DNA of 64,000 nucleotides from NCBI GenBank assembly GCA_009929375.1, contig SAAO01000006.1, positions 1 through 64,000 on the forward strand, read 5' to 3'. Made by a program: the position numbers and the translations under genes. Under the pieces are notes generated by a model, which saw only the letters and a list, made by a program, of their open reading frames with translations, searched no databases and was not told the origin of the DNA. Below are positions 24,127 through 50,728 of the stretch, piece after piece; position 1 is the first letter of the stretch; every line of letters starts with the position of its first letter. The stretch is from Bacteroidia bacterium (GTDB lineage Bacteria > Bacteroidota > Bacteroidia > Bacteroidales > Paludibacteraceae).

Positions 24127-25488
24127 TCAGAAGGTAATATTTAATCCAAACAACACAGTTCTTGGCAGACTATATCCGGCATCCTGAACACCACCAGCTT
24201 CGGGGTTGCTCAAAGTTTTAGCCTGAGTCAGATAGCCTAAGTTCTGACCTGTAACAGAAACATCCATTTTGGTCATTCTGAGAGCCTTTACAACTGCTGT
24301 AGGCATGTTATAAGTAAGAGTCAACTGACGTAAAGACACATAGTCTCCACGGTGAGTAAATAATGTAGAGTTACGATAGTTACCTTTACCAAGCTGGTCA
24401 GCCCACTGATATGTAGGATATTTAGCATTTGGGTTTTCAGGTGTCCAGGTGTTAGTTACATCCATTGTAGTACTGTAAGAACCCTGCATTACACCAAGTA
24501 TCCATGGCAAACGATAATCCAGTACGTGGAAACCTAAAGCATAGTCAAGAGCTGTGTAAAGACTGAAGTTTTTGTAGCTCAGCGAAGTATTGAAACCACC
24601 AACCCAATGCGGAGTTGTATTACCAATTTTCACAAGATCGTAATCATCAATTACATTATCACCATTCACATCTTTCCATCTTACATCACCCGGCAAAATA
24701 GGTAAGCCTTTGCTTGCTACTTTTTCAGCTTCAGTCATTGCATTCCAGTTATTTACTCCATAAAGTGTACGTGTGGTAGCTCCCTGGAAAGAAATTGGTT
24801 TTACAACGCGATCAGTCGGAATTTCAGAAGCATCTTTGTATAATCCATCGGCCTGCCATGCATAAAGTACGCCCGGCTCCTGACCTTCCTGATATCCACC
24901 TACCCAAATAAGATCGGTAGCATCTTTGCCTGAATATACCTGATATGCACCCTGACGATTTCTCTCCAAACCATTTTCAGGTAATTTTACGATAGTATTT
25001 TTGTTGTACGAAATGTTTGCACCAATATTCCATTTGAAATCTTTAGTGTGAATAGGTTTTGCACTTAATTCAATTTCGACACCACGGTTACGGAACTGTC
25101 CGTTGTTGGTTCTGATTGATCTGATACCTGAAGAAACAGGAAGTGTCAGTGAAGCAAACTTATCATCAGTCAAACGATCGTAGAAAGTAAAATTAGCCGA
25201 ATACTTATTGTCTACAAAACTCAGGTCCAAACCACCTTCCAAAGTGCGTGTTTTTTCCCAAAGCAGACCAGGATTAGGTACTGAACCCAATACAAATGTC
25301 GACAAACCATTGTATTTTGCTGCACCCACATAACTTCCCTGAAGTTCGTAAGCTCCAATTCCCGAAACGTTTCCGTTCAAACCGTAACTTGTGCGAACTT
25401 TACCATAAGAAAGTATATCTTCAAAATCGTTCATGAAGGATTCCTTGCTGAAAACCCAACCTGCAGAAACACCTGGGAAGTACCCCAA
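24127..25488 (-). pseudogene. SusC-like transporter, C-terminal part after frameshift
   Basis: This reading frame carries the last 453 residues of a SusC-type barrel, beginning exactly where the upstream frame ends (WGYFPGVSAGWVFSKESF is the normal continuation of NNRWG). It ends in LPRTVLFGLNITF, a typical barrel-closing aromatic terminus. It has no plausible start codon of its own at the junction (only TTG at 25488), so it would be translated only if the shift is a sequencing error or is bypassed. See the entry at 25431-27479. Confidence 0.85.
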
Positions 25489-27479
25489 CGATTATTAATA
25501 AGTCTTGAATAACCGTCGCGACGCATAACCATCGACAGCAGATATTTACCTTCATAATCGTAATTTACCCTTCCAAAGAACGACAAAATGCGTTGCTGGG
25601 TATGATATGAATCAATACTTCTTTTATCTTTATCAGATGAAGTCAGTGCTAAATCGCGGAAGTCGTCGGTAGCAGCACCTGATCCTGATGCGGAGAAACC
25701 ATACATATAAGTATCGTAATACTCAATACCGCCAAGAGCAGTTACATAATGATCGCCAAATGCTTTCTGATAATTCAATACAGCATTGTAAGTCTGATCA
25801 AACAAACGATCGAATCCGGCATAAGAATTACGGGTAGTATTCATTGCGGTAGCCGATGTTTTGAAGTCTCTGTTGAAAGTTTCGTTGTATCCTTCGCTGT
25901 AGAACCAGTTTGCAGTTAATTTCAGGAACAATGATTTGCTGAAATCAACTTTAAATGCCTGCGAGAAGGTAAATTTATCAGTTTGATTGAATACAAAGAA
26001 TTTGTCATCCTGGAAATTCTGGTTACCATCACCACTGTTGTTACCCAAAAGCGGAGTACCATCTTCAGTTTCGAAGCGTACGGTTGGAGGCAACGACAAT
26101 ACGCGGCTGAAATAATTGGCTTCACTCCCCTGCGAACCCGGCATCGATTGCCAGTTTGCTCTGTTGAAGTTGAAACTTGAGATTGAAGTCAACCATGGTT
26201 TAATTTTGTAATCACCATTAAAGATAAACGAGTAACGTTTGTAGAATGATGATACAGGCAAACCCTGTGAGTTATTGTAACCAATACCAGCATAGTAATG
26301 TCCGTTGTCATTACCGCCTGACATATTCAGGTTATAATCCTGAGTATATGAAGGATTAATAAAGTTGTAGTCAGCAGGATTTGTGTTCTTAAAAATAAGA
26401 TCTTCCTTGATGTTTGGATCATTAGGGTACTTATTTTTCAAAAAGTCATACACAGGATCCTTCATTGTTTGCCAGCCTTTATCCAAAAGAAATCTGTTCT
26501 GGTCATTCAGATACATTGTACTCCAGATAGAGTTGGTTGTGTTAGCAAGCGGAGTAACACCATCGGCAGCAAAGTATGCATTACCGGTTCCGAAAGGCTG
26601 AGTTCCCTGCAGGAAGCCAATGTTAGTTGCGTAACCAACACCAGTTCCATCGTTTTTAAACCATACGTTATTAGCTTTTACATAAGCAGGACGCATCCAT
26701 GTCAGATAAGTCTGAGCATCAGCAAATTCGTAAGGATTATTCAGAAAGTTTGCACCCACTTTTACTTTCAGGTTAATTTCTGAAGTTCCGGCTTTTCCCG
26801 ATTTTGTTTTAATCAGAATTACCCCGTTGTTTGCACGTGCACCATAAATTGCGGTAGCACCAGCATCCTTCATAACCTGCATATCTTCAATATCTTCAGG
26901 GTTAATGTCCGACATGCTGCCACGAATCTGACCATCCACAATTACGAGCGGCGATCCAGAACCATCGAGGTTTGTACCACCACGAAGTGTAATGGAAGGA
27001 GTTGCACCGGGATTACCGGAGTTCTGCACCACACGGAGTCCGCTGACAGCACCCGAAAGAGCCTGAGCCGGATTTGAGAAAACCCCCGAAGAAAGTTTTT
27101 GGTTATCTACCTTAGCAATCGAGTTAGTGCTTCGGGCGCGGGTTTGTGAGCTACCGTAACCTGTTACAACAACTTCGTCAAGTTTCTGAGCATCTTCTTC
27201 TAATACTACATTAAAAAAATTACCCGTTTTTACGTCAACAATCATTGATTTGTAACCAATATAGGAAACCTGAACATTGTTTCCTGCATTGATTTTCAAT
27301 GAAAAATTACCATCAATATCTGTGATTGTACCATTACCAGCAGTACCAAGTTCAATCACACTAGCGCCAATTACCGGTTCGGAGGCTTTGTCAACCACAC
27401 GCCCGGAAATAGTTTTGGTTTGTGCCGATAGATTAACGCACAAAGCCAAGCCTAATAAAAAAGAAAGTGCTTTTTTCAT
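25431..27479 (-). pseudogene. SusC-like TonB-dependent transporter, N-terminal part (frameshifted)
   Basis: SusC-like proteins import glycans through the outer membrane using TonB energy. This part has a signal peptide (MKKALSFLLGLALCVNLSAQ), a carboxypeptidase-regulatory-like domain (about 22-100), the TonB box region DEVVVTGYG, a plug domain (about 115-225) and part of the barrel. After NNRWG the frame breaks: the minus strand reads TGGGGTAC where TGGGGTTAC would keep the frame, a one-base deletion near 25480-25485. Corrected, the gene would span 24127-27479 and encode about 1117 residues, the normal length. It lies 42 bases after the epimerase gene and 30 before susD. Confidence 0.9.
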
Positions 27480-28825: not shown

Positions 28826-29006
28826 AAAAATATGTGTTTTTTTACAAACATGTTGTAAAACATATTTTTGGTCGATTTTTTTGCGGAGATGCTTAACAAT
28901 AAACACGATTATCTACATTTTGTAAAACAAATTACAATCAAAACCAAAATAAACGTTATAATTCGCCGGATTTAATGCTTCTAAAAAACAAAAAAACTAA
29001 ATTATA

Positions 29007-33763: not shown

Positions 33764-33779
33764 TATGTTATATAACATA
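33764..33779. promoter_or_regulatory. Palindrome TATGTTATATAACATA upstream of small RNA 1
   Basis: This is a perfect 16-bp palindrome centred 59.5 bp upstream of the -7 box at 33831. A near-identical palindrome (TATGTTWTATAACATA type, one mismatch) lies at exactly the same distance before the second copy at 50713-50728. A transcription-factor site is likely. Confidence 0.65.
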
Positions 33780-33807
33780 ATTATTCAACATGTTTTCGTT
33801 GATTTTC

Positions 33808-33838
33808 TTGGTTGATATTGAAAAAAGCAATACTTTTG
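33808..33838 (+). promoter_or_regulatory. Promoter of small RNA 1
   Basis: TTG at 33808-33810, a 20-base spacer and TACTTTTG at 33831-33838 match the Bacteroidetes -33/-7 consensus. The copy-2 promoter has the same boxes and spacing with an unrelated spacer sequence. Confidence 0.75.
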
Positions 33839-33844
33839 TACTGT

Positions 33845-33992
33845 GATTTTTTCATAGTATTAGATTTAAGGTTAACAAAGATTGGTAGTAAAGCGTTACT
33901 ACCTTTCGCGTTTTTATAGGGTAGGTATTTCCATTTAAACTCTATATATTTTCAGGGCTGTTCGGATTTTTCCGAATGGCTTTTTTATTTTG
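33845..33992 (+). ncRNA. Putative structured small RNA, copy 1
   Basis: About 148 nt are bounded by a consensus promoter and a terminator (stem 33957-33966 with 33971-33980, then a T-run). No ORF was found. The first 39 nt after the promoter (33841-33879) are identical to the second copy at 50613-50651. Next comes a hairpin GGTAGTAA-AGCG-TTACTACC (33884-33903); in copy 2 the lower GGTAG/CTACC stem is kept while the upper stem is different but still paired, which supports an RNA structure. Then come CTACCTTTCGC and TATAGGG blocks shared by both copies. It lies in the 297-base gap between the AraC-type gene and purD. I cannot match it to a named RNA family. Confidence 0.62.
33957..33992 (+). 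terminator. Small RNA 1 terminator
   Basis: GCTGTTCGGA pairs with TCCGAATGGC (two G-U pairs) around TTTT and is followed by TTTTTTATTTT. The same hairpin, inverted, ends copy 2 at 50272-50299. Confidence 0.8.
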
Positions 33993-50248: not shown

Positions 50249-50271
50249 ATTTTACCTACTGAAAAATAAAA

Positions 50272-50299
50272 AGGCCATTCGGAAAAACCCGAACAGCCT
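50272..50299 (-). terminator. Small RNA 2 terminator
   Basis: AGGCCATTCGG (50272-50282) and CCGAACAGCCT (50289-50299) form the same hairpin as the copy-1 terminator, in inverted orientation, followed on the minus strand by TTTTTATTTTT. Confidence 0.75.
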
Positions 50300-50342
50300 G
50301 AAATTAAGTTTGTTGAAATATTTAATGATATATCTCTAACAC

Positions 50343-50458
50343 AATAGAACACATAGAAATAATTGAGGAAGAAGACTTAGTTCACATAGTAAAAGTATCT
50401 GACGATACTTTTATAGCTCTGAAATTATCCCGATATTCGGGATAATCCTATGTGTTCT
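50343..50458. repeat. Palindromic repeat inside small RNA copy 2
   Basis: AGAACACATAG (50346-50356) is mirrored at 50448-50458. Inner hairpins are AAAAGTATC/GATACTTTT (50391-50412) and ATTATCCCGA/TCGGGATAAT (50424-50446). Related arms (TTCACATAGT, TACTATGTGG) extend to about 50500. It belongs to the same class of gene-free palindromic units as 2222-2457. Confidence 0.6.
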
Positions 50459-50653
50459 TTGTCTTTTCTGTTGTTTTCAAAACTACTGTGTACTATGTGG
50501 TGAAAACATATCAACAATAATTATCGATTACTTATATAGTGTTAAAACGGGAAGATCAAACCCCTATAAAATGCGAAAGGTAGCTTTGTCTCACGACAAT
50601 CTACCAATCTTTTTTGTTAACCTTAAATCTAATACTATGAAAAAATCACAGAA

Positions 50654-50684
50654 CAAAGGTAAGGCTGTTTGAGAAAATATGCAA
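50654..50684 (-). promoter_or_regulatory. Promoter of small RNA 2
   Basis: On the minus strand TTG (50684-50682), a 20-base spacer and TACCTTTG (50661-50654) match the consensus, with the same geometry as copy 1. Confidence 0.7.
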
Positions 50685-50712
50685 GAGTTCGGCCTAAATA
50701 TTTGCTCAAAAT

Positions 50713-50728
50713 TATGTTTTATAACATA
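50713..50728. promoter_or_regulatory. Palindrome upstream of small RNA 2
   Basis: TATGTTTTATAACATA is a 16-bp palindrome with one mismatch, centred 59.5 bp from the -7 box, exactly as in copy 1 (33764-33779). Confidence 0.6.

Follow-up and report, generated by a model that had tools for sequence, protein, structure and literature searches.

FopS small RNAs (sRNAs), recently described in gut Bacteroides as a brake on the import of polysaccharides, repress the translation of susC in Bacteroides thetaiotaomicron (PMC11697453). In the parts of that paper covered here, FopS transcripts are 65–70 nt long, sORFs are excluded for its FopS copies, Bacteroides species carry 12–15 copies, and FopS is induced by bile salts, with the regulator termed an ‘unknown transcriptional regulator’; Cur is named there once outside the references, on the fitness of a mutant. 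Cur (BT4338) is a Crp-type regulator for which the covered part of a 2013 regulon study gives the consensus wwwTATGTTnTAnAACATAwww (PMC3878776), and that of a 2020 study provides ChIP-seq and a promoter deletion for the BT4338 site at fusA2 (PMC6989115). According to these sections of the two studies, fusA2, ara and pfl genes belong to the Bacteroides Cur regulon (PMC3878776, PMC6989115). MasB of B. thetaiotaomicron is described as a Cur-activated sRNA (PMC10994844), and some sRNAs have been noted close to Cur sites in the covered part of a further study (PMC10294740). In the literature that we searched, partly as excerpts and with supplements and subscription journals outside the scope, we found no publication linking Cur to FopS.

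Here, we analyze two sRNA loci in a 64,000-nucleotide stretch of DNA, hereafter the window, from a genome (3.87 Mb, 122 contigs) of the GTDB genus of Paludibacter propionicigenes. As far as sequence can tell, the new elements are a Cur-type site at FopS promoters and the occurrence of FopS outside the Bacteroidaceae.

Family and anatomy of the two window loci

Copy 1 (33764–33992, + strand) and copy 2 (50258–50728, − strand) have a promoter, a 39-nt block, a hairpin and a terminator in common, and all the recurring parts that a sequence-only reading had reported for them are present, on opposite strands. That reading found no known family assignable. However, cmscan places copy 1 (33843–33920, +) in Rfam family RF04319 (FopS) at 59.6 bits against a cut-off of 56, covering model positions 1–71; a hit of this kind had been named beforehand as counting against the claim, and an unknown family is thereby ruled out. 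Copy 2 (50565–50649, −) matches the same model over its full length at 52.9 bits, just under the cut-off of 56. On these matches, both window loci are FopS genes, copies of a known Bacteroidales sRNA family. The genome holds five FopS loci at E < 0.001, four of them above the cut-off, and the expectation of a structured small RNA with its own promoter in several copies was borne out, with five loci instead of two. GibS (RF04182) shares the start of the seed with the window RNAs (38.4 and 45.3 bits), far below its 115-bit cut-off, and membership of that family was rejected, as were NrrF, TD-2, MIR7504, IS128, Yfr8, L20_leader, snoR110 and BTnc231, for which the Rfam matches of both pieces were all below cut-off.

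Among 393 genomes of the order, 83 have a match to RF04319, which is above the cut-off in 76, and these matches span 23 family codes; FopS thus extends beyond the Bacteroidaceae, its previously reported range. Since 12 candidates were scored per genome, copy numbers from this survey are to be read as ‘at least’. A tandem array of three FopS genes occupies approximately 670 bases of P. propionicigenes (2632332–2632998; L176, L170 and L172 are listed), and two other species of the genus also carry tandem arrays of three genes each. In two near-alike RNAs that score under the FopS cut-off (L012 1501–1570 and L015 1501–1570), the seed is rearranged to TTTTTCATAGTTAAGGTTTAGGTTAA and the hairpin is centred on GTGGCTGTGAAGTTAC; they are perhaps a sister family of FopS.

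The promoter described earlier, TTG-N20-TAnnTTTG, is found at both copies with a spacer of 20 nt in each. It is of the sigma-ABfr type and adjoins the RNA start, the position of which is taken from the covariance model. In copy 1 the −33 box TTG lies at 33808–33810 (+) and the −7 box TACTTTTG at 33831–33838 (+), and in copy 2 the corresponding boxes are TTG at 50682–50684 (−) and TACCTTTG at 50654–50661 (−). In correction of the sequence-only reading, the −7 box of copy 2 is TACCTTTG and not TACTTTTG. The common 5′ block is exactly 39 nt long, as had been stated, and occupies 33841–33879 in copy 1. It contains the 5′ seed region of the R1′ type (33843–33879, +), which was used for the target test below and is mostly open in the predicted fold, where pairing is confined to a stem of four pairs at the beginning and to the last three pairs.

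The hairpins of copy 1 (33884–33903, +) and copy 2 (50579–50605, −) have the same lower stem, GGTAG/CTACC, and an upper stem that has changed yet still pairs, in agreement with the sequence-only reading. We compared 19 distinct hairpin forms from 45 of the 48 genus copies of the window class, excluding three copies with another hairpin. Stem pairs 1–3 and 5 are invariant across these forms; pair 4 is A-T in 17, G-C in one and T-A in one, and pair 7, in the seven short forms, is A-T in two and C-G in five. Owing to the asymmetry of the longer forms at this point, 6 of 19 lack pair 6 when pairs are counted straight from the ends. Compensatory changes in homologues are therefore present at pairs 4 and 7, but they are few.

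Downstream of the hairpin, GGCTGTTCGGNTTTTTCCGAATGGC is found at 33956–33980 and 50274–50298 and nowhere else in the genome within three mismatches. It belongs to a second terminator hairpin with a T tail, at 33954–33992 (+) in copy 1 and 50262–50298 (−) in copy 2, which in this genome only these two copies share. With two places in this genome, the downstream terminator was ruled out as a feature of the family. A terminator scan of the copy 1 strand reports the second hairpin and no other, and the U tract after the first hairpin is interrupted. In the 48 genus copies, conservation stops approximately 80 nt into the RNA, directly behind the U-rich tail of the first hairpin. The transcript of about 150 nt that had been proposed is therefore doubtful, having the terminator scan on its side and the extent of conservation against it, and an end of conservation near nucleotide 80 appears to fit the B. 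thetaiotaomicron RNAs of 65–70 nt, as given in the covered part of PMC11697453, better than 150 nt. The two copies do share the second terminator, and none of 200 shuffles folds as well as the 150-nt copy 1 sequence (z = −3.79), both of which would suit an undescribed sRNA family with a transcript of approximately 150 nt; given a match to RF04319 above its cut-off and conservation that ends near nucleotide 80, we regard such a family as highly improbable and treat both loci as FopS.

Copy 2 spans 470 nt because it is interrupted, between hairpin and second terminator, by an interspersed repeat of approximately 230 bp (50305–50534, −; ends set by eye). This repeat has 43 listed matches in the genome, of which 40, its own included, are longer than 85 bp and three are just 23–24 bp, and on that ground the middle part of copy 2 was ruled out as sRNA structure. 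The repeat contains nested palindromes and occurs at approximately 40 places of the genome with 79–100% identity.

Cur-type sites in the genome and across FopS promoters

At each of the two copies, a perfect palindrome, TATGTTNTANAACATA, has its centre at −71 and equals the published Cur/BT4338 consensus. It reads TATGTTATATAACATA at 33764–33779 (+) in copy 1 and TATGTTATAAAACATA at 50713–50728 (−) in copy 2, with no mismatch to the 16-bp core of the consensus in either. The range 33764–33992 delimited in the sequence-only reading begins at this palindrome, which went unnamed there. With at most one mismatch the core occurs 16 times in 3.87 Mb and the backward pattern twice. Four of the 16 sites belong to FopS promoters; at the remaining one of the five FopS promoters the site has two mismatches. 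Cur-type sites also precede an araD/araA pair and a divergent aldose epimerase gene, EF-G2 (NF058620, 835 bits over 465 residues) and pyruvate formate lyase. The site is centred at −70 for both the aldose epimerase and the sialic-acid epimerase, at −54 on the araD side and at −35 for pyruvate formate lyase, and on the EF-G2 side no TAnnTTTG box was found near the Cur-type site; with the −54 and −35 positions and the missing EF-G2 box, these sites do not establish a single fixed activating distance.

The sialic-acid epimerase site is in the window itself (28849–28864, no strand assigned, one mismatch), between divergent sialic-acid-type epimerase and lyase genes, with its centre at approximately −70 from a TACATTTG box on the − strand; the matches of the window epimerase, lyase and NanU-like genes are below their NCBIfam cut-offs. 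A SusC gene at window positions 24127–27479 runs in two overlapping frames (25431–27479 and 24127–25488), owing to a frameshift or an assembly error, and adjoins a NanU-like SusD gene and genes of sialic-acid type. Further matches to the Cur motif, none with more than one mismatch, are found at G000 C3:57517, C3:57677, C4:2308, C40:82488, C42:99, C76:49641 and C113:8296. The C40 and C42 sites have the same flanking sequence and both face contig ends; a pectate lyase gene was ruled out as a Cur target, since it ends before the C40 site and the gene faced lies beyond the contig end.

Three proteins of the genome pass the HTH_Crp_2 cut-off. One of them, a Crp-type protein of 233 aa encoded on contig C38, was compared with two Bacteroides genomes and has a single clear counterpart per genome (58% and 57% identity), the next best protein reaching 23%. 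Argued through these two relatives, the C38 protein is likely the orthologue of Cur (BT4338). Its gene and those of its Bacteroides relatives have weaker palindromes (three mismatches) just 3′ of the −7 box, in accord with the site reported upstream of BT4338 orthologues in the covered part of PMC3878776. The other two proteins above the HTH_Crp_2 cut-off, together with decayed sites at many Bacteroides copies, leave room for the FopS palindrome to be bound by another Crp-type protein or to be a functionless relic. We consider this improbable: in the window-copy class of the genus the palindrome columns hold 1.32 bits each, as against 0.73 in the neighbouring stretch between palindrome and promoter, and the same motif stands ahead of the EF-G2, ara and pfl genes.

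The link between Cur-type sites and FopS was surveyed in 167 distinct FopS promoters and eight GibS promoters, counting sites with at most two mismatches. FopS matches that failed the seed expression or had less than 130 nt upstream were left out (for example, L038, L040, L042, L043, L159 and L162), and the 40 order-level stretches in the sample were hand-picked from the RF04319 list, not drawn at random. A Cur-type site is present in 111 of 167 FopS promoters and the reversed motif in 4 of 167, with none in 164 downstream control stretches and none in the eight GibS promoters. By group, the site is found in 5/5 promoters of the genome itself, 54/63 of the genus, 6/9 of family f3 and 38/66 of other families of the order. 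In B. fragilis Q1F2 and B. xylanisolvens XB1A, which form the Bacteroides sample and stand in for B. thetaiotaomicron, 8 of 24 FopS promoters keep it (GibS removed). These 111 promoters name a candidate for the regulator missing from the FopS family.

The sites are at −71/−72 in 39 promoters, at −60/−61 in 13, at −27 to −31 in 56 and elsewhere in three. A TTG box between −36 and −32 is found in 51 of the 52 promoters with an upstream site (−60/−71 type), in 52 of the 59 remaining promoters, which are without a site, and in 26 of the 56 whose site falls at −27 to −31. In this last third of the sample the site covers the −33 box and could mean repression. In a rival reading, Cur would repress FopS, so that with plentiful sugars Cur would be off, FopS on and importers silenced. 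Cur is known from the covered part of PMC6989115 to repress genes too, and the Cur gene itself seems to have its weaker sites right after the −7 box. We nevertheless judge repression unlikely, given that the window copies combine a −71 site with an intact TTG box, like 51/52 promoters of their type, and that a TTG box in just 26/56 of the −29 type is more in keeping with promoters that depend on an activator than with a strong promoter being covered. At the window copies, activation is the preferred reading, because the −71 site lies upstream of an intact promoter and near the −70 of both epimerase sites.

Predicted pairing with susC start regions

Pairing was computed between the seed, taken as the initial 37 nt of the copy 1 RNA, and start regions from −30 to +20. 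Start codons were assigned by a fixed rule that took no account of pairing. The SusC set consisted of 17 genes above the family cut-off with a start (L103 was dropped). Of 45 SusC matches listed, 28 were examined in this fixed-rule test and 26 in a first run with hand-set starts. For the 17 SusC starts, pairing with the copy 1 seed averages −14.5 kcal/mol, as against a mean of −8.3 (sd 0.8) for 200 dinucleotide-shuffled seeds, none of which came down to −14.5. The pairing of these starts is also stronger than that of 42 window genes (p = 0.0006) and of 10 SusC matches below the cut-off (p = 0.004), and a FopS seed of the other class gives p = 0.02 and p = 0.01 for the same two comparisons. The first run used 18 genes, including one below the SusC cut-off (L117), with starts set by hand after viewing the best-pairing sites, and it gave the same picture.

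The best SusC sites overlap the start codon (−23.5 for L100 and −21.6 for L107 with the class A seed; −20.2 for L109 with that of copy 1). Pairing is poor at several SusC starts, including the window’s own, and for five window genes other than susC the copy 1 seed gives values of −17 kcal/mol or below. As a set, the window genes are also below their own shuffles (−10.5 versus −9.0, 0/200 as low), which means that the pairing signal is in part a general property of the start regions in this genome. By these comparisons, the FopS seed is predicted to pair with susC starts above chance.

The exact FopS seed was also found in 24 IMG/VR contigs. In 12 of the 24 (L263, L267, L268, L273, L275–L279, L281, L282 and L286) neither a −33/−7 promoter nor a Cur site was found, and in the same 12 a GC-rich hairpin follows the seed. 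Eight of these 12 contigs have ORFs listed, and there the seed falls between other genes or a short way 3′ of them; terminase-like genes are near it in L263, L275 and L276 and, weakly, in L281. Such seeds could belong to FopS mimics that phages carry and produce as the 3′ ends of their mRNAs. Bacteroides phage BX-TP2 (L287, PQ571285.1), induced from B. xylanisolvens, has a FopS seed at 974–1019, in an unannotated stretch approximately 300 bp from a DNA methyltransferase gene.

Proposed role and relation to described systems

We consider it probable that the window loci encode FopS sRNAs under the control of Cur, by which sugar importers are silenced when carbon is limiting. The elements that the sequence supports are the FopS family, the promoter, Cur-type sites that are perfect and fixed in position, the likely Cur orthologue, and a predicted complementarity of the seed to susC starts that exceeds chance. 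From the −33/−7 Bacteroidetes promoter a short RNA would be made that consists mainly of a single-stranded 5′ seed and a terminator-type hairpin. Cur, the Crp-type BT4338, would bind the −71 palindrome, and when preferred sugars are exhausted it would most likely raise FopS transcription. The seed would then bind around the start codons of several mRNAs for susC-type importers and block their translation, and importers without substrate would thereby be turned off. RRM-1 proteins of the RbpB type may counter FopS action, and the genome has three RRM-1 genes. We infer three of these steps, namely the binding of Cur at FopS in the cell, activation rather than repression, and lower susC translation.

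A wider and more tentative view, which we rate as possible and still rather doubtful, is that FopS forms the RNA arm of Cur in the Bacteroidales, with two promoter types through which one signal can swap FopS sets. Cur would activate from −60/−71 and act otherwise from −27 to −31, over the −33 box, and the swapped sets would differ slightly in their seeds, CATAG versus CATGG. A link to Cur would tie the FopS RNA layer to a carbon-starvation master switch, and for B. thetaiotaomicron a cur deletion mutant, ChIP-seq of Cur and a Northern probe for FopS are already available, according to the covered parts of PMC6989115, PMC10994844 and PMC11697453.

Among described systems, the window loci resemble the FopS genes of B. 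thetaiotaomicron in having a 5′ seed, a hairpin, multiple copies, a −33/−7 promoter, RRM-1 proteins in the genome and predicted targets at susC starts. They differ from them in lying outside the Bacteroidaceae, in their perfect −71 Cur-type site and in a copy number of five, as well as in an RNA that starts GTGATTTTTTCATAG, an interrupted U tract (TTTCGCG, TTTCGCA) and a second terminator downstream. The eight GibS promoters, unlike those of the window FopS genes, have neither a Cur site nor a TAnnTTTG box. In Escherichia coli, Spot 42 is an sRNA under CRP, a Crp-type regulator, that tunes sugar genes; it would parallel the reading in which Cur represses FopS, and its family is a different one. 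MasB (PMC10994844), likened here by its description in the covered part of that paper, is also an sRNA gene with a Cur site and acts near the start of its mRNA, but it is another RNA with another target, and a single gene as against the paralogous FopS family.
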